From assembly GCF_018873765.1 (NCBI RefSeq), contig NC_057920.1, forward strand, positions 9,685,307 through 9,749,306: a stretch of 64,000 bases of DNA, given 5' to 3'. The DNA is from Telopea speciosissima. Its lineage: Eukaryota; Streptophyta; Magnoliopsida; Proteales; Proteaceae. The notes beneath the pieces were generated by a model. That model was not told the origin of the DNA. It searched no databases and saw only the letters and a program-made list of their open reading frames with translations. Position numbers and translations under genes: made by a program. Positions 6,956-62,841 of this stretch are shown piece by piece (position 1 is the stretch's first letter; each line of letters starts with the position of its first letter).

Positions 6956-8464
6956 CTACTCATGAGCTATATCGATCTCTCCCTCTTGTGATGTTCTCTC
7001 CCCTGACTTTGCTTTGGCATAACCAATCTCCCACTGCTGCGCAACATGAGAGAGCCACTCCCGAGAAGACCCACCCTCACCCACCGCTCTCAACCCACTC
7101 TCCTTCACCTCCTTCACTTTACTCCTCAGTGCTTCCCCTTCGCCTTCCTTTTCCATCACCGATCTCACAAGCTTCTCTATCTCTTCCCTTCCCACCACTC
7201 TCTTTGTTGGCAACTCCTTCGTTCTCACCGCCACCCCTACTTCCTCCTCCAGCATCGTCGCATTCATCTTCTGCTCCGCGTACAGCGGCCAAGCGATCAT
7301 TGGCACTCCGTTCACTATGCTTTCCAGCGTTGAATTCCATCCACAATGTGATAAGAACCCTCCAATCGATGGATGGCTTAACACCTCCACCTGCGGGGCC
7401 CACATGGGGACTACCAACCCTACCTCTCGGTTCCGATTCAAGAACCCGTCCGGCAGGTACCTAGACAGCTCATCGTCTCCGTCTGTGCCCCCACCCAATA
7501 CGGTGAAGAAAGCCCCATCCTTCCCTGCCGGCGGACGCACCACCCAAAGAAATCGTTTCCCACTCAGCTCCAACCCGAATGCAAACTCAATGAGTTGCTC
7601 CTCCGACAGTGTTCCGGCGCTCCCCAACGATACGAAAATCACCGACTCCACGGGTTGTTCATCCAGCCACACCAGACATTCAGCACGTGATTGGACACAA
7701 GGTGGGCCCGCGGAATTCACTATTGGACCCACCGGATAAATCGGAAGGGGCAAGATCCGACGTAGGATTGGATCCTCTCGAAGGGCTCCGAGTGTTGTTG
7801 GCTCCAAATCCTCCCACGTGTTTATCAGTATCGCATCTGCCAAGGGGAAAGTGCACCCCATACATAGATAGTACTCGTACTGGTCGTCCTTCCGGTCCAT
7901 CATTGGGTCGACCAAGTCCTCCACCCGAATCGGCTTGCAACTTGGGATGCGAACCGGTTCTTGCATGTCCACGTACTCACCCTCTATCTCTTTATGCAGC
8001 GTGGGCACATACACCGTCAACGCCAAGAACGCTGCCGTTGTCGGAATGTAAAGGTATTTGGGGATGCCAAGCTCGTCTGCGATGGGGAAAGCGTAGGTGC
8101 CGAACAATTCGACAATCAGCACAATGGGCTGCGGTGACATGGCAGCAAGAGCAGCTCTTAAGGCTGGGATTGATTCTCTGACGGTGATACTAATACGGGT
8201 GCAGGTGGATGTTTGGTTAGTGACGAAGGCCGATATATCGGGCGGCGAGAGATGGACGATGCGGATGGCGGAGGGGAGGTGTAGCGAATGAAGAAGTTGT
8301 GATTGGGCAGTGGCAGTGTGGGCTTCGGCTGAGGCGAAGAAGATGGTGGAGTGGAAGCCGTGCAGGGAGAACAAGCGCTTCGAGAGAGCTACCAGAGGGA
8401 ATAAGTGGCCCATGCCTGGACTTACAAATAGTGCCACATGTGGATTTTGATTTTGCAATTCCAT
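6956..8464 (-). CDS. UGT-1: UDP-glycosyltransferase, UGT72-like (intact)
   Basis: Single-exon 502-residue GT-B glycosyltransferase predicted to move glucose from UDP-glucose to a small phenolic acceptor in the cytosol. The N-terminal acceptor half has Ser-Pro-Gly-Met-Gly-His with the catalytic-type His20. The 44-residue PSPG box at 355-398 starts Trp-Ala-Pro-Gln, contains His-Cys-Gly-Trp-Asn-Ser and ends in Gln, the residue associated with UDP-glucose use. The partner acid of the catalytic dyad (Asp117 in UGT72B1) aligns with Glu119. The start has a strong context (gccatgg) and matches the family N-terminus. Length fits the usual 470-510. A conserved TATA lies about 55 bases upstream. Group E / UGT72 placement rests on motifs (FGT-x-AF, Val-Tyr-Pro-Val-Gly-Pro-type) and is an inference; the acceptor cannot be told. 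Confidence 0.92.
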   Translation of the reverse strand: MELQNQNPHVALFVSPGMGHLFPLVALSKRLFSLHGFHSTIFFASAEAHTATAQSQLLHSLHLPSAIRIVHLSPPDISAFVTNQTSTCTRISITVRESIPALRAALAAMSPQPIVLIVELFGTYAFPIADELGIPKYLYIPTTAAFLALTVYVPTLHKEIEGEYVDMQEPVRIPSCKPIRVEDLVDPMMDRKDDQYEYYLCMGCTFPLADAILINTWEDLEPTTLGALREDPILRRILPLPIYPVGPIVNSAGPPCVQSRAECLVWLDEQPVESVIFVSLGSAGTLSEEQLIEFAFGLELSGKRFLWVVRPPAGKDGAFFTVLGGGTDGDDELSRYLPDGFLNRNREVGLVVPMWAPQVEVLSHPSIGGFLSHCGWNSTLESIVNGVPMIAWPLYAEQKMNATMLEEEVGVAVRTKELPTKRVVGREEIEKLVRSVMEKEGEGEALRSKVKEVKESGLRAVGEGGSSREWLSHVAQQWEIGYAKAKSGERTSQEGEIDIAHE

Positions 8465-11838: not shown

Positions 11839-13355
11839 TCATGATTGATGAGTATTTCTATCGATCTGTCCCTCTTGTGATGTTCTCTCCCTTGCCTTTG
11901 CTTTAGCATAACCAATTTCCCACTGCTGTGCAACATGAAAGAGCCACTCCCGAGAAGACCCACCCTCACCCACCGCTCTCAACCCACTCTCCTTCACCTC
12001 CTTCATTTTTCTCCTCAGTGCTTCCCCTTCCCCTTCCTTTTCCATGACCAATCTCACCAGTTTCTCTATCTCTTCCCTTCCCACAACCCTCTTCGTTGGC
12101 AACTCCTTCGTTCTCACCGCCACTCCTGCTTCCTCCTCGAACAACGCTGCATTCATCTTTTGCTCCGCGTACAGCGGCCAAGCAATCAATGGCACTCCGT
12201 TGACTATGCTTTCCAGCGTTGAATTCCATCCACAGTGTGATAAGAACCCTCCAATCGATGGATGGCTTAACACCTCCACCTGCGGAGCCCACATGGGGAC
12301 TACCAACCTACCTCTCTGGTCCGAATCAAGAACCCGTCCGGCAGATACCTTGACAGCTCACCATTTCCGTCTGGGCCCCCACCCAGTGGGGCGAAGAAAG
12401 CCCCAACCGTCCCTGCCGGTGGAAGCACCGCCCAAAAAATCGTTTCCCACTCAGCTCCAACCCTAAAGCCAACTCAGTGAGTTGCTCCTCCGACAGCGTT
12501 CCGCCGCACCCAAACGAAATGGCATCACCGATTCCACGGGTTGTTCATCCAGCCGCGCCACACACTCTACACTTGATTGGTCACAAGGTGGGTCCAATGA
12601 TCTCACTATTGGGCCGACCGGATAAACCGGCAGGGGCAAGATCCGACGTAGGATTGGATCCTCTCGAAGGGCTCCGAGTGTTTTTGGCTCCAAGTCCTCC
12701 AACGTGTTTATCAGTATCGCATCCGCAAAGGGTAGCGTACACCCTATATATACATAGAAGTCATACATGTCGTTATTCCGGTCCATCATTGGGTCGATCA
12801 AGTCCTTCACCCGAATCGGCTTACAACTTGGTATGCGAACCGGCTCATGCATATCCACGTACTCGCCCTCTATCTCTTCATGCAGCGTCGGCAAGTACAC
12901 CGTCAACGCCAAGAACGCTGCCGTCGTCGGAAAGCGTAGGTGCCAAACATTTTGGGATGCCAAGCTCTTCTGCGATGGGGAAAGCGTAGGTGCCAAACAT
13001 TTCGACGATCAGCACAGTGGGTTGCAGTGACATGGCAACAATAGCAGCTCTTAAGGCTGGGATTGATTCTCTGACTGATACTTATACGGGAGAAGTATAC
13101 TGTTTGGGCAGTGACGAAGGCGGAGATATCTGGTGGCGAGAGATAGATGATACGGATGGCAGAGGGAAGGTGTAGGGAATGAATGAGTTGGGATTGAGCA
13201 GTGGTAGTGAAGGCTTCGGCTGAGGCGAAAAAGATGGTGGAGTGGAAGCCGTGCAGGGAGAACAAACGCTTGGAGAGGGCTACCAGAGGGATGAGATGGC
13301 CCATTCCAGGGCTTGCAAATAGCGCCACGTGTGGATTTGAATTTTGTAATTCCAT
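11839..13355 (-). pseudogene. UGT-2: broken UDP-glycosyltransferase
   Basis: A full-length relative of UGT-1/-3/-5 with the same start (gccatgg at 13355), His motif and PSPG box (in the 11839-12306 frame), but no continuous frame. Against UGT-3/-5 I see small indels near 12307 (one base lost in taccaacctacc), near 12441 and 12515 (one base each), a 7-base net gain at about 12924-12948, and two bases lost near 13076. The 12924 change replaces local sequence with a copy of gaaagcgtaggtgccaaaca, which also lies at 12979-13001. The promoter TATA is retained. The dyad acid reads Glu. Non-functional unless the assembly is wrong. Confidence 0.88.
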
Positions 13356-13687: not shown

Positions 13688-14495
13688 GAGGGATAAAGAT
13701 CCTCTCCAATTCTTTAATTTGGTAATTTCTGGCAACAATTCAGATCGTCTAGGGCTCGGCGGTCCGTAGCGGTCTGTACGGTGCAGACTAGGACGCGTGT
13801 GCAATGAACGCCTTACCCCCGCTTGGGCAAGGCGTTTGGGCAAGGGTAAGGCGGTCTTTGCACGCACGACTGAGTCTGTGTCACACAGGCCGCTATGGGC
13901 AACGCACCGTAGAAGATCTGGATCCTCCCGGCAATGCCACCTTCCCTGTGCAACATGTGGCATAAAAAGATCCTATGATGGGGAATAGTTTGCACCATTT
14001 CATGAACCACAATCCGATTTGAAATATGGATCATCCCAACCCGAATGGATTGTAAACCCAAAACGGGTTCCCTGGGAAAAAAAAAAATAGAGGAAGGGTA
14101 AACACTTTCAAACCGTGACTTTCCCTCTCCCCCTCTCTCTTTCTCTCGTTCATCTCCTTCCCTCCTTACCATCGTTGGAGAGCTTCAAGGTCTGAAACCA
14201 GGTATTGGATTTTGGTTTCAGACCTAGAAGCTCTCCAATGGTGGGAAGGAGAGAAGGAGATGAACACAGAGAGGGAAAGTCATGGTTTGAAACTAATCTT
14301 CACTTTTCTGCGTTGTTGTTGTTGGATTTTTTTTTTTTTTTTTTTTTTTTTCTCTAATTGCCAAAACTAAGAGGAAAACTTCCAAGGAATTAGTTCATGG
14401 AGAGATTAAGAACTTGAACTTGAACATGTATCACACAGGGAAGATGGCATTGCCAGGAATTGCCAGATTAAAGAATTGGAGAGGATCTTCATCCT
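13688..14495. mobile_element. Large inverted-repeat element, hosting a nested MITE
   Basis: Outer arms match in inverted form: 13691-13735 (aagatcctctccaattcttt) against 14458-14492 (aaagaattggagaggatctt). The next segment, 13930-13957 (ggcaatgccaccttccctgt), pairs with 14428-14455. The core 14115-14300 is itself a near-palindrome (gagagcttcaaggtctgaaa / tttcagacctagaagctctc). A different palindromic MITE (13736-13925) sits inside the left arm, so this element is older. A T run of about 27 lies at 14324-14350. A foldback or MULE-like DNA element is likely. Confidence 0.65.
13736..13925. mobile_element. Palindromic MULE-type MITE, family P, copy A
   Basis: A 190-bp near-palindrome with core 'cgccttacccccgcttggg' facing 'gggcaagggtaaggcg'. 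Its ends read caattcagatcgtcta and, inverted, ggatccagatcttcta. Flanks ttctggcaa (13727-13735) and tcccggcaa (13926-13934) agree at 7 of 9 positions. It interrupts the arm of a larger inverted repeat, which gives an insertion order. Confidence 0.75.
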
Positions 14496-25996: not shown

Positions 25997-26632
25997 TCAC
26001 TCTTGTCTCCTATCCCCTGCTTTCGCTTTAGCATAACCAATCTTCCACTGCTGCGCAACATGAGAGAGCCAATCCCGAGGAGACCCACCCTCCCCGACCG
26101 CTCTCAACCCACTCTCCTTCACTTCTTTCATTTTTCTTCTCAGTACTGCTTCCCCTTCCCCCTTCTTTTCCATCACCAATCTCACCAGCTTCTCTATCTC
26201 TTCTCTTCTCACCACCCTCTTCGTTGGCAAGTCCTTCGTCTTCACCCCCACCCCTACTTCCTCCGCCACCATCGCTGCATTCATCCTCTGCTCCGCGTAC
26301 AGCGGCCACGCGATCATCGGCACTCCGTTCACTATGCTTTCCAGCGTCGAGTTCCACCCACAATGTGATTCTTAAGAACCCTCCAATCGATGGATGGCTC
26401 AATACCTCCACCTGCGGGGCCCACATGGGGACTACCAGCCCAACTTCTTGAGTCCGGATCAAGAACTCGTCCGGCAGGTACCTTGACAGCTCATCGTTTC
26501 CGTCTGTGCCCCCACCCAATGCGGTGAAGAAAGCCCCATCCTTCCCTGCCGGCGGACGCACCACCCAAAGAAATCGTTTCCCACTCCGCTCCAACCCGAA
26601 TTCAAACTTAGTGAGTTGCTCCTCCGACATTG
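25997..26632 (-). pseudogene. UGT-4: 5'-truncated, frameshifted UDP-glycosyltransferase
   Basis: Only the C-terminal half of the family fold remains, starting at the Ser-Glu-Glu-Gln-Leu-Thr region before the PSPG box. Homology ends at about 26632, and the next bases belong to a LINE 3' tail. Within the PSPG box a 4-base gain (gtgattcttaag versus gtgataag, near 26370) shifts the frame between Gly-Gly-Phe-Leu and Asn-Gly-Val-Pro. The acceptor-binding domain, catalytic His and promoter are missing. The closest intact relative is UGT-5 (shared Ala-Glu-Gln-Arg-Met-Asn and Gln-Gln-Trp-Lys-Ile). Confidence 0.88.
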
Positions 26633-26635
26633 ATT

Positions 26636-26920
26636 TTTTCGGCATGTATAGGGTCCATCTTTTGGCACACATGTGCATGCACTTAATTTTAGCTGTGTCT
26701 ACAGTTTTTTATCTACGGAAGCGATTATGTCCCATCCCCTAGTCTGGATGATCCAGTCAATGGCATGTGAGTCTGGATCAACTTCTACTTCTTGATTTTG
26801 GATACCGTATATCCATATCTTGTGTTTATCATACTCTCTATCTGTTTTATGTATCTTGGTTTCCTTTGCTTGGCGTTGGACGCACATAAATGAATTGCCT
26901 CATTTCTATCAGAAAAAAAA
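26636..26920 (+). mobile_element. LINE 3' tail joined to UGT-4
   Basis: It matches 3893-4175 over about 260 bp (gtgcatgcactta, ctagtctggatgatcc, gtcaatggcatgtgag, gcgttggacgcacata) and ends in an A-rich tail at 26910-26921. It lies exactly where the 5' half of UGT-4 should be. Beyond the tail the missing UGT half does not resume, so a simple insertion is not enough and a deletion must have followed or accompanied it. Confidence 0.6.
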
Positions 26921-44711: not shown

Positions 44712-44723
44712 CGTTGGAACTGC

Positions 44724-44860
44724 ACGTACGGCCTCACACAGGTAGAGCATGGACCCCACCCAGACACGTTGTTCAGGCAGTAGGTGGGGCGGTCATTTTG
44801 CCCCTGCCCACTGCTTGTGTGAGGCCGCTCAGCTGCCCGGACATAGAGGATTAGAATCCG
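44724..44860. mobile_element. Palindromic MITE-like element next to copy D
   Basis: cggcctcacacaggtagagc faces cactgcttgtgtgaggccgc, and gaccccacccagacac faces caggtggggcggtc-like sequence. Its right end (gctgcccggacatagaggat) is also found at 50415-50440 in the UGT-7 flank. It may be a diverged family P relative. Confidence 0.5.
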
Positions 44861-44929: not shown

Positions 44930-46516
44930 TTACTTCAGCAATGAAACCTTCAAAGGATTACCCATAGCAAAGGAAAAACTATTATTAGGATCTAAGTTAG
45001 ACTGCCATGACATTTCATGAACTCCATCCTTCTCTCTCTCCTGACTCCTCTCCAATATTGGCTTCGCTCTAGTATAATTACCAATTTTCTTCCACTCCTG
45101 CGCAACATGAGAGAGCCAATCCCGAGATGACCCACCTTCACCCACCGCTCTCAACCCAGTCTCCTTCACTTCCTTCATTCTTTTCCTCATTCCTTCCCCT
45201 TCTTTTCCCATTGCAAACCTCACCAGCTTCTCTATCTCTTCCCTTCCCACCACCTTCTTCGTTGGCAATTCCTTCGTTCTCAAACCCACCCCTACATCCT
45301 CTGCCAGAATCGCCGCATTCATCCTCTGCTCCGCGTACAGCGGCCACGTGATCATCGGCACTCCGTTGACCACGCTTTCCAGCGTGGAGTTCCACCCGCA
45401 ATGAGATACGAAACCTCCAACCGATGGATGTCTCAACACCTCCACCTGCGGGGCCCACATGGGTACAACCAATCCCACTTCTCGGGTTCTGGTCAAGAAC
45501 CCGTCCGGCAAGTATTTTGACATCCCAACACCTTCGTCTCCGCCCTTCCTCCCGACGTTGAAGAAAGCCCCGTCATTCCCAGCGGGCGGACGCACCACCC
45601 AAAGGAATCGGCTCCCACTCATCTCCAAACCCAAAGCCAACTCAGTGAGTTGCTCCTCCGACAACGTTCCACCGCTTCCAAACGATACATAAATCACCGA
45701 TTCCACGGGCTGTTCGTCCAGCCAATCCAGACAATCTACACGTGAGGATTGGTCACAAGATAGGCCGAATGATCTCACTAATGGTCCAACCGGATAAACC
45801 GGCAGGGGCATGATCCGACATAGGATTGGATCCTCTCGAAGTGCTTTGAGTGTTGTTGGCTCTAAATCATCCCACGTGTTTATCAATATCGCATCTGCAC
45901 GGGGTAACGTGGACCCTACATAAACGCTGCAGTCGTACTGCTCTTTCTTCCGGTCCATCATTGGGTCGATCAAGTCCTCCACCCTAATCGGCTTGCAACC
46001 GGGTATCCGAACGGGCTCCTGCATGTCCATGTACTCGCCGTCTATCTCCTCATGCAGCGTTGGCACGTACACCGTCAACGCCAAGAACGCTGCCGTCGAC
46101 GGGATGTAAACGTATTTGGGGATGCCAAGCTCTTCTGCTATGAGGAAAGCGGGGGTGCCGAACATGTCGACGACTAGGACAATGGGCTGCGATGACATGG
46201 CAGCAATAGCAGCTCTTAAGCCTGAGATTGATTCTCTGACTGCGATGTAGATAAGGGGAAGGACGTCTGTTTGGGCAGTGACGAAGGCGGAGATATCGGG
46301 CGGCGAGAGGTGGACGATTTTGATGGCGGAGGGGAGCTCTAGGGAATCGAGTTTGGATCGGATAGCGTTAGAGGAGGGGGATGAGATTGAGGCAACGAAG
46401 ATGGTGGAGTGGAAGGCATGCAGGGAGAACAAGCGCTTGGAGAGTTCTACCAAAGGGATGAGATGGCCCATGCCAGGGCTTGCAAACAGTGCTATGTGTG
46501 GGTTTGGCAAGTCCAT
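44930..46516 (-). CDS. UGT-6: UDP-glycosyltransferase, UGT72-like (intact)
   Basis: A 528-residue single-exon glycosyltransferase and the best candidate in the array for a standard enzyme. His18 lies in Pro-Gly-Met-Gly-His. The partner acid is Asp117 (Val-Val-Asp-Met-Phe-Gly-Thr), as in characterised UGT72B1, whereas all other readable copies have Glu. The PSPG box at 354-397 is canonical with terminal Gln, predicting UDP-glucose. It groups with UGT-7 and -8 by the Ser-Lys-Leu-Asp-Ser-Leu loop and Ala-Glu-Asp-Val-Gly near the box. About 35 residues past the usual C-terminus form a Ser/Asn-rich tail ending Lys-Val-Ser-Leu-Leu-Lys, probably read-out of former 3' UTR. The start is in accatgg context and the TATA is 98 bases upstream. 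Confidence 0.92.
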   Translation of the reverse strand: MDLPNPHIALFASPGMGHLIPLVELSKRLFSLHAFHSTIFVASISSPSSNAIRSKLDSLELPSAIKIVHLSPPDISAFVTAQTDVLPLIYIAVRESISGLRAAIAAMSSQPIVLVVDMFGTPAFLIAEELGIPKYVYIPSTAAFLALTVYVPTLHEEIDGEYMDMQEPVRIPGCKPIRVEDLIDPMMDRKKEQYDCSVYVGSTLPRADAILINTWDDLEPTTLKALREDPILCRIMPLPVYPVGPLVRSFGLSCDQSSRVDCLDWLDEQPVESVIYVSFGSGGTLSEEQLTELALGLEMSGSRFLWVVRPPAGNDGAFFNVGRKGGDEGVGMSKYLPDGFLTRTREVGLVVPMWAPQVEVLRHPSVGGFVSHCGWNSTLESVVNGVPMITWPLYAEQRMNAAILAEDVGVGLRTKELPTKKVVGREEIEKLVRFAMGKEGEGMRKRMKEVKETGLRAVGEGGSSRDWLSHVAQEWKKIGNYTRAKPILERSQEREKDGVHEMSWQSNLDPNNSFSFAMGNPLKVSLLK

Positions 46517-46946: not shown

Positions 46947-47105
46947 CAATTCAATTCCTCTACGGTGGGCCGTAGTGGCCTGAGCAGCGTAGACTGAGCC
47001 ATGCACGCAAAGACCCCCGTACCCCTGCCAAAATGCTTTGCCCAAGCGGGGGTAAGGCAGTCATTGCACGAGCGGCCCAGTCTGCACCGTAGAAGATCTG
47101 GATCC
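46947..47105. mobile_element. Palindromic MULE-type MITE, family P, copy C
   Basis: 159 bp. Ends caattcaattcctctacggt and, inverted, ggatccagatcttctacggt. Flanked by perfect 9-bp ttgtcccag (46938-46946 and 47106-47114). Core cccctgccaaaatgctttgc faces caagcgggggtaaggc. It lies about 330 bases upstream of the UGT-6 TATA. Confidence 0.85.
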
Positions 47106-47300: not shown

Positions 47301-47490
47301 CAATTTTGGATCCTCTACTGTCGAGCCGCCCGAAAGGACTGTGCTGCCCAGACACGGCGAGGCGCATAATGACCGCCTCACCCCTGCCCGAATGCCTTGC
47401 CCGAGTGGGGATAAGACGGTCATTGCAAGCCTCACCATGTCTGGGCAGCACGGTCATGCCAGGCAGCTCGGTAGTAGAGGATCTGGATCG
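47301..47490. mobile_element. Palindromic MULE-type MITE, family P, copy B
   Basis: 190 bp, flanked by perfect 9-bp agcaaacta (47292-47300 and 47491-47499). Core gaccgcctcacccctgcccg faces gagtggggataagacggtc, with outer tgctgcccagacacggcgag facing catgtctgggcagcacggtc. Confidence 0.88.
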
Positions 47491-49966: not shown

Positions 49967-50156
49967 CAATTCGACTCCTCTACTTCTGCCTGCCCTTACT
50001 GCAGCGTGCGCCCCACACACAAGTAAAGCAGAATGTGCCGTCTTACCTCTACTCGAGCGCCTTGCCTGAGCGGGGGTAAGGTGGTACTTTCCATTGCGCT
50101 TGTGTGTGGGGGCACACGGCATTACCCGGCAAACGGAAATAGAGGAGTCGGATCTA
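49967..50156. mobile_element. Palindromic MULE-type MITE, family P, copy E
   Basis: 190 bp with ends caattcgactcctctacttc and, inverted, gatccgactcctctatttc. Flanks ttgaaagta (49958-49966) and ttgaaggta (50157-50165) match at 8 of 9. Core gagcgccttgcctgagcggg. Confidence 0.8.
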
Positions 50157-50517: not shown

Positions 50518-52293
50518 TTACTTCAACATTGAAACTTTTAAAGTGTTCAATCCAGATCCTTTAAGGCGAGCTGCCCCAACTGTGCCTTGTTGTGCAGAAA
50601 CAAGGTGGTGCATCTTGTTCGTCTTACTCTCATTTGGGTAAGGCGTTCGAACAAGGGTAAGATAGTCATTGCATGTGATCCTATGTCTATGCAGCACGAC
50701 CACTGGGGCAGCTCGCATCGTATAGGATCTGGATCCCAAAGTATTACCCTTAGCAAAGGAAAAACTATTAGGATATAAGTTTGACTGCCATGACCTTTCA
50801 TGAACTCCATCCTTCTCTCCCTCCTGACTCCTCTTCATTGCCTTTGCTTTAGTATAACCAATCTTCTTCCACTCCTGCGCAACATGAGAGAGCCAATCCC
50901 GAGAAGACCCACCTTCACCTACCGCTCTCAACCCACTCTCCTTCACTTCCTTCATTCTTTTCCTCATTCCTTCCCCTTCCTTTCCCATGACAAACCTCAC
51001 CAGCTTCTCTATCTCTTCCCTTCGCACCACCTTCTTCGTCGGCAACTCCTTCGTTCTCAAACCCCCCCCTACATCCTCCGCCAGCATCGCCGCATTCATC
51101 CTCTGCTCAGCGAACAACGGCCATGCGATTATCGGCACTCCGTTGACCATGCTTTCCAGCGTCGAGTTCCACCCGCAATGTGATACGAAACCTCCAACAG
51201 ATGGATGGCTCAACACCTCCACCTGCGGGGCCCACATAGGTACAACCAATCCCACTTCTCGGGTTCGGGTCAAGAACCCGTCCGGCAAGTACTTTGACAT
51301 CCCTACACCTTCATCTCCGCCGCTCCTCCCGACGTTGAAGAAAGCCCCGTCCTTCCCAGCTGGCGGACGCACCACCCAAAGGAATCGACTCCCACTCATC
51401 TCCAACCCCATAGCCAACTCAGTGAGTTGCTCCTCCGACAACGTTCCACCGCTTCCAAACGATACATAAATCACCGATTCCACGGGTTGTTTGTCCAGCC
51501 AATCCAGACAATCTACACGTGATGATTGATCACAAGGTAGACCGGATGATATCACTAATGGTCCAACCGGATAAACCGGCAGGGGAATGATCCGACTTAG
51601 GATTGGATCCTCTCGAAGGGCTTTGAGTGTGGTTGGCTCTAAATCCTCCCACGTGTTTATCAGTAACGCATCTGCAAGGGGCAACGTGGACCCCATATAT
51701 AAACAGCAGTCGTACTGCTCAATCTTCCGGTCCATCATGGATTCTACCAGATCCTCCACCCGAATCGGCTTGCAACCGGGTATTCGAACCGGCTCTTGCA
51801 TGTCCACGTACTCGCCCTTTATCTCGTTATGCAGCGTTGGCACGCACACCATCAACGCCGAGTATGCTGCCGTCGACGGGATGTAAACGTATTTGGGGAT
51901 GCCAAGCTCTTCTGCGATGGAGAAAGCGGCGGTGCCGAACGTTTCGACGACCAGGACAATGGGCTGCGGTGACATGGCAGTAATTGCAGCTCTTAAGGCT
52001 GAGATTGATTCTCTGACTGTGATGTGGATACGGGGGACGGCGGCTGTTTGGGCAGTGACGAGGGCGGAAATATCAGGCGGCGAGAGATGGATGACGTTGA
52101 TGGCGGAGGGAAGCTGTAGGGAATCGAGTTTGGATTGGATAGCTTTAGAGGAGGGGGCTGAGGTTGAGGCGACGAAGATGGTGGAGTGGAAGCCATGCAG
52201 GGAGAGCAAGCGCTCGGAGAGGGCTACCAGAGGGATGAGATGGCCCATGCCGGGGCTTGCAAACAGTGCTATGTGTGGGTTTGGCAACTCCAT
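50518..52293 (-). CDS. UGT-7: UDP-glycosyltransferase with MITE-derived C-terminal insert
   Basis: A 591-residue single-exon frame, about 90 longer than usual for the family. The catalytic half is intact: His18, Glu117 at the dyad acid (Val-Val-Glu-Thr-Phe-Gly-Thr) and a canonical PSPG box near 354-397 ending in Gln. After the normal end it has the same Ser/Asn-rich tail as UGT-6, but a family P MITE (50549-50737) is inserted in it. Element plus 9-bp duplication is 198 bp, or 66 codons, and contains no stop in this frame. The tail therefore resumes with Leu-Lys-Val-Ser-Met-Leu-Lys and the ancestral stop. The family TATA region is missing upstream (see promoter entry), so expression is doubtful. 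Core enzyme activity is plausible but unproven. Confidence 0.85.
   Translation of the reverse strand: MELPNPHIALFASPGMGHLIPLVALSERLLSLHGFHSTIFVASTSAPSSKAIQSKLDSLQLPSAINVIHLSPPDISALVTAQTAAVPRIHITVRESISALRAAITAMSPQPIVLVVETFGTAAFSIAEELGIPKYVYIPSTAAYSALMVCVPTLHNEIKGEYVDMQEPVRIPGCKPIRVEDLVESMMDRKIEQYDCCLYMGSTLPLADALLINTWEDLEPTTLKALREDPILSRIIPLPVYPVGPLVISSGLPCDQSSRVDCLDWLDKQPVESVIYVSFGSGGTLSEEQLTELAMGLEMSGSRFLWVVRPPAGKDGAFFNVGRSGGDEGVGMSKYLPDGFLTRTREVGLVVPMWAPQVEVLSHPSVGGFVSHCGWNSTLESMVNGVPIIAWPLFAEQRMNAAMLAEDVGGGLRTKELPTKKVVRREEIEKLVRFVMGKEGEGMRKRMKEVKESGLRAVGEGGSSRDWLSHVAQEWKKIGYTKAKAMKRSQEGEKDGVHERSWQSNLYPNSFSFAKGNTLGSRSYTMRAAPVVVLHRHRITCNDYLTLVRTPYPNESKTNKMHHLVSAQQGTVGAARLKGSGLNTLKVSMLK
50549..50737. 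mobile_element. Palindromic MULE-type MITE, family P, copy G, inside UGT-7 CDS
   Basis: 189 bp. Ends aatccagatccttta and, inverted, ggatccagatcctata, followed by gcgagctgcccca on both arms. Flanks aaagtgttc (50540-50548) and aaagtatta (50738-50746) match at 7 of 9. The UGT-6 counterpart (ccttcaaaggattacccata near 44946) lacks it. Confidence 0.82.
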
Positions 52294-57478: not shown

Positions 57479-59023
57479 TTACTGAGCTTTTCTCTTGATC
57501 GCATGGGATTGAGATATGGCGGGAGAAAACTCTGTTTCATCCTTATCTCCCTCCCAACTCCTCTTCATTGCGTTTGCTTTATTATAACCAATCTTCTTCC
57601 ACTCCTGCGCAACATGAGACAACCAATCCCGAGAAGACCCACCTTCACCCACCGCTCTCAACCCACTCTCCTTCACTTCCTTTATTCTTTTCCTCATTCC
57701 TTCCCCTTCCTTCCCCATTACAAACCTCACCAGCTTCTCTATCTCTTCCATTCCCACCACCTTCTTCGTCGGCAGCTCCTTCGTTCTCAAACCCACCCCT
57801 ACATCCTCCGCCAGCATTGCCGCATTCATCCTCTGCTCCGCGTACAGCGGCCACGTGATCATCGGCACTCCGTTCATCATGCTTTCCAGCGTCGAGTTCC
57901 ACCCGCAATGAGATATGAAACCTCCAACCGATGGATGTCTCAACACCTCCACCTGTGGAGCCCACATGGGTACAACCAATCCCACTTCTCGGGTTCGGGT
58001 CAAGAACCCGTCCGGCAAGTATTTTGACATCCCAACACCTTCGTCTCCTCCCCTCCTCCCGATGTTGAAGAAAGCCCCGTCCTTACCAGCTGGCGGACGA
58101 ACCACCCAAAGGAATCGGCTCCCACTCATCTCCAAACCCAAAGCCAACTCAGTGAGTTGCTCCTCCGACAACGTTCCACCGCTTCCAAACGATACGTAAA
58201 TCACCGATTCCACGGGTTGTTCGTCCAGCCAATCCAGACAATCTACCCGTGATGATTGGTCACAAGGTAGACCGGATGATCTCACTAAAGGTCCAACCGG
58301 ATAAACCGGCAGGGGCATGATCCGACGTAGGATTGGATTCTCTCGAAGGGCTTTGAGTGTCCTTGGCTCGAAATCCTCCCACGTGTTTATCAATATCGCA
58401 TCTGCACGGGGCAACGTGGACCCCATTTATACGCTGCAGTCGTACTGCTCTTTCTTCCGGTCCATCAGGGAATCGAGCAGATCCTCCACCCGAATCGGCT
58501 TGCAACCGGGTATCCGAACCGGCTCCTGCATGTCCACGTACTCGCCCTCTCTCTCCTTATGCAGCGTTGGCACGTACACCATCAACGCCAAGTACGCTGC
58601 CGTCGACGGGATGTAAACGTATTTGGGGATGCCGAGCTCTTCTGCGATGGGGAAAGCGGCGGTGCCGAACATTTCGACGACCAGACCAATGGGTTGCGGT
58701 GACATGGCAGCAATAGCAGCTCATAAAGCTGAGATTGATTCTCTGACTGTGATGTGGATACGGGGGACGATGGCTGTTTGGGGAGTGACGAAGGCGGAGA
58801 CATCGGGCGGTGAGAGATGGACGACGTTGATGGCGGAGGGGAGTTGTAAGGAATCGAGTTTGGATTGGATAGCTTTAGAGGAGGGGGGTGAGGTTGAGAC
58901 GATGAAGATGGTGGAGTGGAAGCCGTGCAGGGAGAACAAGCGCTTGGAGAGGGCTACCAGAGGGATGAGATGGCCCATGCCGGGGCTTGCAAACAGTGCT
59001 ATGTGTGGGTTTGGCAAGTCCAT
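57479..59023 (-). pseudogene. UGT-8: UDP-glycosyltransferase with two in-frame stops
   Basis: A full-length member of the UGT-6/-7 group in one frame throughout, but with TGA at 58721-58723 (Arg codon in relatives, after Ser-Ile-Ser-Ala-Leu) and TAA at 58427-58429 (Tyr codon in relatives, after Tyr-Asp-Cys-Ser-Val). The His motif, Glu at the dyad position and a canonical PSPG box with Gln are all present, and the TATA is retained. The C-terminal tail differs from UGT-6/-7, ending in a short Lys-rich sequence. With only nonsense changes and no frameshift this looks like a recent pseudogene; an assembly or base-calling error should be excluded. Confidence 0.85.
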
Positions 59024-62666: not shown

Positions 62667-62841
62667 GGATCCGAATCCTCTACTTCTGCCTGCTCAGTAT
62701 TGCCGTACGCCCCACACACAGCAAGGCAAAAAATACCGCCTTACCCCCGCTCAGGCAAGGGTAAGGCAGTACTTTCGCTGCCCTACTGTGTCTGGGGTGC
62801 ACACGACAGTACGGGCAGGCGGAAGTAGAGGATCTCGATTC
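62667..62841. mobile_element. Palindromic MULE-type MITE, family P, copy F
   Basis: 175 bp with ends ggatccgaatcctctacttc and, inverted, aatcgagatcctctacttcc. Flanks agaattcta (62658-62666) and aaaattctg (62842-62850) match at 7 of 9. The paralogous site near 49770 (gaaagaactctattagagag) is empty. Confidence 0.8.

Follow-up and report, generated by a model that had tools for sequence, protein, structure and literature searches.

The UDP-glycosyltransferase gene UGT-7 of Telopea speciosissima contains, within its open reading frame, a complete palindromic MITE of a multi-copy family (family P), and its tandem paralogue UGT-6 preserves the corresponding site without the element. Both genes lie in the window, the 64,000-nucleotide stretch of contig NC_057920.1 (positions 9,685,307 to 9,749,306) that was analyzed. 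The best explanation, to which a probability of about 0.8 is assigned, is a tolerated and near-neutral lengthening of the UGT-7 C-terminus by a non-autonomous Mutator-like MITE after the UGT-6/UGT-7 split. By this account, a Mutator-like MITE would have moved into UGT-7 at its 3′ end once the two genes had separated, and the insertion together with its 9-bp target duplication would have added 198 bp. Because the commonest family length is 189 bp and the GC-rich sequence is poor in stop codons in most frames, 66 codons would have been gained with the stop still in frame. The insertion would have been tolerated since it falls past the catalytic domain, in a C-terminal tail common to UGT-6 and UGT-7 only.

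Filled and empty sites in two sister genes

UGT-7 (50518–52293, minus strand) is an uninterrupted frame of 591 residues, assigned to the plant UDP-glycosyltransferases by Pfam and solved-structure matches, and UGT-6 (44930–46516, minus strand) is a frame of 528 residues. In a pairwise alignment, the two are separated by a single large insertion. It lies 21 bp from the common end of the open reading frame, a distance that covers six codons and the stop. The 189-bp element occupies 50548–50736 on the minus strand, begins at offset 1557 of the coding sequence in phase 0, and corresponds to residues 520–582; it was delimited from the UGT-6 alignment and the genomic copies. In the sense of the gene, the upstream copy of the target duplication is AATACTTTG (50737–50745, minus strand) and the downstream copy is AACACTTTA (50539–50547, minus strand). 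These are identical at 7 of 9 bases, and both differences, AAT/AAC and TTG/TTA, are synonymous. In UGT-6, the target site AATCCTTTG is present once (44951–44959, minus strand, by arithmetic from the alignment), in agreement with an earlier sequence-only reading that took this gene as the pre-insertion state. The register of the element is fixed by the family ends (GGATC… and CAATC…) and the 9-bp duplication. The limits proposed in that reading, 50549–50737, are thus right in length and place and wrong by one base.

The alignment gap, together with at least 39 other matching places in the genome, also bears out the claim that a complete element lies within the coding region. Element and duplication (189 + 9 = 198 bp) supply 66 codons that are free of stops in the frame used, through to the stop common with UGT-6, just as had been read from the letters. 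The final 21 bp (50518–50538, minus strand), which hold the old C-terminal codons and the stop codon, align with the end of UGT-6, so the original C-terminus was indeed kept. Among the titles and abstract openings listed by a full-text literature search, with most subscription journals outside its coverage, none describes this insertion; it is a clean but ordinary case of a kind of event that is already known.

By comparison of the two genes, the insertion is younger than their split. The UGT-6 and UGT-7 cores differ with a dS of 0.17 and a dN/dS of 0.38. If the two branches are equal, neutral changes since the insertion would amount to no more than about 0.09 per site, or some 16 over the element. 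When the core changes are polarized with the other paralogues in the window, 31 nonsynonymous and 23 synonymous changes fall on the UGT-7 branch and 29 and 26 on the UGT-6 branch, with 13 unresolved. These counts are alike (Fisher p = 0.70), which indicates no faster decay of UGT-7 than of its sister, and the encoded enzyme has probably retained its function.

The tandem array to which both genes belong spans 6956–59023 on the minus strand and includes five full-length open frames and two copies with internal stops (about 11845–12939 and 57533–59023, by arithmetic), as well as a fragmentary frame at 26028–26678. The position of residue 117 in UGT-7, which we take to be that of the catalytic-dyad aspartate of plant UGTs, is occupied by Asp in UGT-6 (VVDMFGT) and by Glu in the four other full-length UGTs of the window, a replacement that may alter activity. 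Separately, a repeat at 44723–44860, with at least 39 genomic matches (72–90% identical among the matches listed), starts right after the 3′ sequence common to UGT-6 and UGT-7. Repeats are thus found close to the 3′ ends of both sister genes. The family P profile weakly matches part of the 44723–44860 repeat (44738–44859; E = 0.0004).

Family P in the genome

A search of the 823-Mb genome of the species with the UGT-7 element returned 47 matches, including the element itself and seven opposite-strand duplicates, and thus at least 39 other places (best 40 of 92 candidates scored). Among the matches scored, the closest reaches 75% identity across most of the element. A profile of the family, whose model includes the same copy, matches the UGT-7 element with an nhmmer E-value of 4.4e-47. 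The 39 other copies are 168–196 bp long; 11 measure exactly 189 bp and 17 have a length divisible by three. The family consensus is 189 bp long with 70% GC, is a nearly end-to-end palindrome (86 predicted pairs, with the halves matching at 81 of 96 positions), and is open in four of six frames.

Perfect 9-bp duplications, with a slack of two bases at the ends, flank 11 of the 40 copies, compared with none of 40 in a control that exchanged flanks among the copies. Mean flank identity across the 40 copies is 0.59 at a length of 9, compared with 0.27–0.41 for the remaining lengths between 5 and 12. Given these duplications and the at least 39 matching places, the match of the element to a family is not due to chance. 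A target site duplication of 9 bp (8–11) is a criterion for a Mutator-like MITE. Family P has this duplication together with long terminal inverted repeats, and it is short and multi-copy. The family fits a non-autonomous Mutator-like MITE, with the type of transposase, presumably Mutator-like, deduced from the 9-bp duplication and the long inverted repeats. It resembles the Mutator-like (MULE) MITEs of plants, which are short, palindromic, without coding capacity of their own, flanked by 9-bp duplications and present in many diverged copies; the UGT-7 copy differs from these in lying within a coding frame. When a profile of the 40 copies is applied to the window, further diverged copies are found, the clearest at 47303–47490, 13736–13925, 46947–47105, 62667–62841 and 49967–50155, all outside the 40 scored candidates.

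Family P could be regarded as a ready-made in-frame coding insert, a plant counterpart of the palindromic elements of Rickettsia and a recurrent source of longer proteins in this genome, with the UGT-7 hairpin selectively dissolved while the frame was kept. Among 27 of the 39 other copies, examined with kilobase flanks, none lies within an open frame of at least 170 codons; this check considered stop-to-stop frames, and copies in short exons would be missed by it. The longest stop-to-stop frame at these copies has 169 codons, and four copies have no spanning frame at all. Within this sample of 27 other copies, UGT-7 is an isolated case of family P in a coding frame. This result, and the finding that open frames are not unusual for palindromes of such composition, weaken the ready-made insert proposal, which is considered very improbable.

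An open frame, a variable tail and a decayed hairpin

Of the 189 positions of the UGT-7 copy, 47 depart from the consensus, and the frame of the copy is nevertheless open. This openness could indicate that the insert was recruited, such that an extra basic tail alters the localization, stability or partners of UGT-7 and has been kept by selection. The computed pI of the insert with its duplications, 10.6, agrees with such a role, as do the synonymous nature of both duplication differences and the lengths of the three tail indels, all multiples of three. In the other copies, which are presumed to be non-coding, open frames are also frequent: 75 of 234 copy-frames are open and 36 of 234 are both open and of a length divisible by three. 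The frame used by UGT-7 is open in 6 of the 11 other 189-bp copies. In simulations, this frame stays open in 37% of cases when 47 changes are placed randomly on the consensus, and in 57% when 16 further random changes are made to the present UGT-7 copy. Since the consensus is GC-rich, 189 bp long and free of stops in four of six frames, selection is not required for an open in-frame insertion.

Of the differences from the consensus, 13/47 (0.28) are synonymous in the insert, a fraction not above the 581/1740 (0.33) pooled over the other copies. This comparison has low power, as it concerns one copy and pools changes from before and after the insertion, many of which predate it. By this measure, no signal of purifying selection on the inserted codons was found in this low-power test on one copy. 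Recruitment of the insert is accordingly judged quite unlikely, and the insert has so far given no sign of function. The sequence-only reading had pointed out the kept frame; that there is anything special about it is not supported, given the four open frames of the consensus, the commonest copy length of 189 bp, the lack of a synonymous excess and the unconserved tail.

A depletion of stop codons in the family as a whole was also considered and rejected. In random palindromes of the same dinucleotide make-up, at least two of the three sense frames are open in about 14%, and the consensus is therefore not unusual for its composition. For single copies, the proportion of open frames given above compares with 10% in mononucleotide shuffles, a comparison in which the copies have common ancestry.

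The position of the insertion is consistent with its tolerance. The Pfam UDPGT match of UGT-7 (2.1e-23) covers residues 246–411, and the best match to solved plant UGTs covers residues 5–477, with matches ending at about residue 470–482. The PDB matches include 6jtd (3.3e-138) and 2vce, a hydroquinone glucosyltransferase (2.1e-124), and UGT-7 is presumably UGT72-like. Beyond the conserved domain, the C-terminal tail varies among six of the UGT frames in the window, and for the last coding part of the UGT-6 3′ end, UGT-7 is the sole match (best 40 of 193 candidates scored). By homology, the insertion appears to sit in a dispensable-looking extension outside the catalytic domain. Structure prediction for six proteins of the window gave a mean pLDDT of 30, so it is homology that places the insert outside the fold.

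About 40 codons separate the end of the conserved domain from the element, and the tail is unconserved, as might be expected if the element were outside the mature coding sequence, with a transcript that ends or is spliced before it and an open frame that is coincidental. That an open frame would arise neutrally with substantial probability also accords with this possibility. However, the frame is common with UGT-6 to the same stop, and the three indels between the UGT-6 and UGT-7 tails are each of 3 bp, which suggests that the tail was coding before the insertion; an element outside the mature coding sequence is therefore considered unlikely. The contrast between these indels and the 1-bp indel in the common 3′ UTR is a hint that the tail is translated, and the 3-bp indels together with the synonymous duplication differences suggest that it may be under some coding constraint. 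The lengthened protein is probably produced. The origin of the tail by loss of a stop codon was also explored. The paralogues at 6956 and 21096 have TAG where UGT-6 has ATG and UGT-7 has AGG, and TCATG comes next in all four. In four comparisons, similarity beyond TCATG was no better than in shuffles (451, 605, 1061 and 1261 of 2000 reach the score).

The insert might instead act at the level of RNA or chromatin, with a hairpin, or family siRNAs and methylation, lowering the expression of UGT-7 or its sister genes. The predicted RNA fold of the UGT-7 element, at −77.2 kcal/mol, is stable relative to shuffles (z = −6.9). In addition, 34 of the 47 differences from the consensus are C-to-T or G-to-A changes, a pattern that methylation of the lineage, here or earlier, would be expected to leave. 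These changes are found in all contexts (CG 12/44, CHG 10/33, CHH 12/55) and may predate the insertion. The fold itself is branched with 64 pairs, and 64 of the 103 columns in an alignment of the two halves match; a hairpin with arms of about 90 bp, as had been proposed from the sequence, is not confirmed. The predicted fold energies of the other 39 copies range from −78.0 to −155.4, and that of the consensus is −184.6, so the UGT-7 copy has the weakest predicted hairpin of the 40. Given this weak and branched fold, a small-RNA role is less likely for the UGT-7 copy than for other copies, and the suggestion that its hairpin feeds small-RNA production is contradicted in degree. Overall, an effect through RNA or chromatin has a low probability.

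When the 40 copies are ranked by the consensus pairs that they keep, the UGT-7 copy is eighth from the bottom; by half-to-half identity, it is one of the lowest seven. Compared with the values that a regression across the 39 copies predicts from divergence and GC, it keeps fewer pairs (z = −2.7) and its energy is 1.7 SD weaker. With several measures tried on related copies, these values are suggestive only, a weak lead toward a selective loss of the hairpin in UGT-7.

Relation to known palindromic inserts

A MITE survey reports that, in the plant families analyzed for location, exons hold these elements least often, with few exceptions (PMC12550479). The Rickettsia palindromic elements are described as short (~150 bp) mobile palindromes found in frame within protein genes (PMC10969869). 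They share with the UGT-7 insert an in-frame palindromic mobile sequence in a protein gene; these elements are bacterial and recurrent in many genes, whereas family P provides one case. Reading frames have been reported for intragenic mobile repeats of enterobacteria (PMC2759123). Mariam is a miniature transposon-like element in a coding exon of a wheat 5-formyltetrahydrofolate gene (PMC6824096). This element is without terminal inverted repeats and shortens the frame by a stop codon, whereas the UGT-7 frame stays open. The mitochondria of Nematomorpha have long inverted repeats in protein-coding sequence (PMC6649704), with both arms encoding conserved protein under selection. In contrast, the UGT-7 palindrome is decayed and its residues are absent from every paralogue seen.

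The empty site in UGT-6 and the filled site in UGT-7 form a clean before-and-after pair within one tandem array, in which a MITE has lengthened a plant open reading frame without breaking it. A GC-rich palindrome whose length and duplication are divisible by three can lengthen an open reading frame without selection. The pair therefore supplies a null expectation for assessing claims of MITE exaptation.
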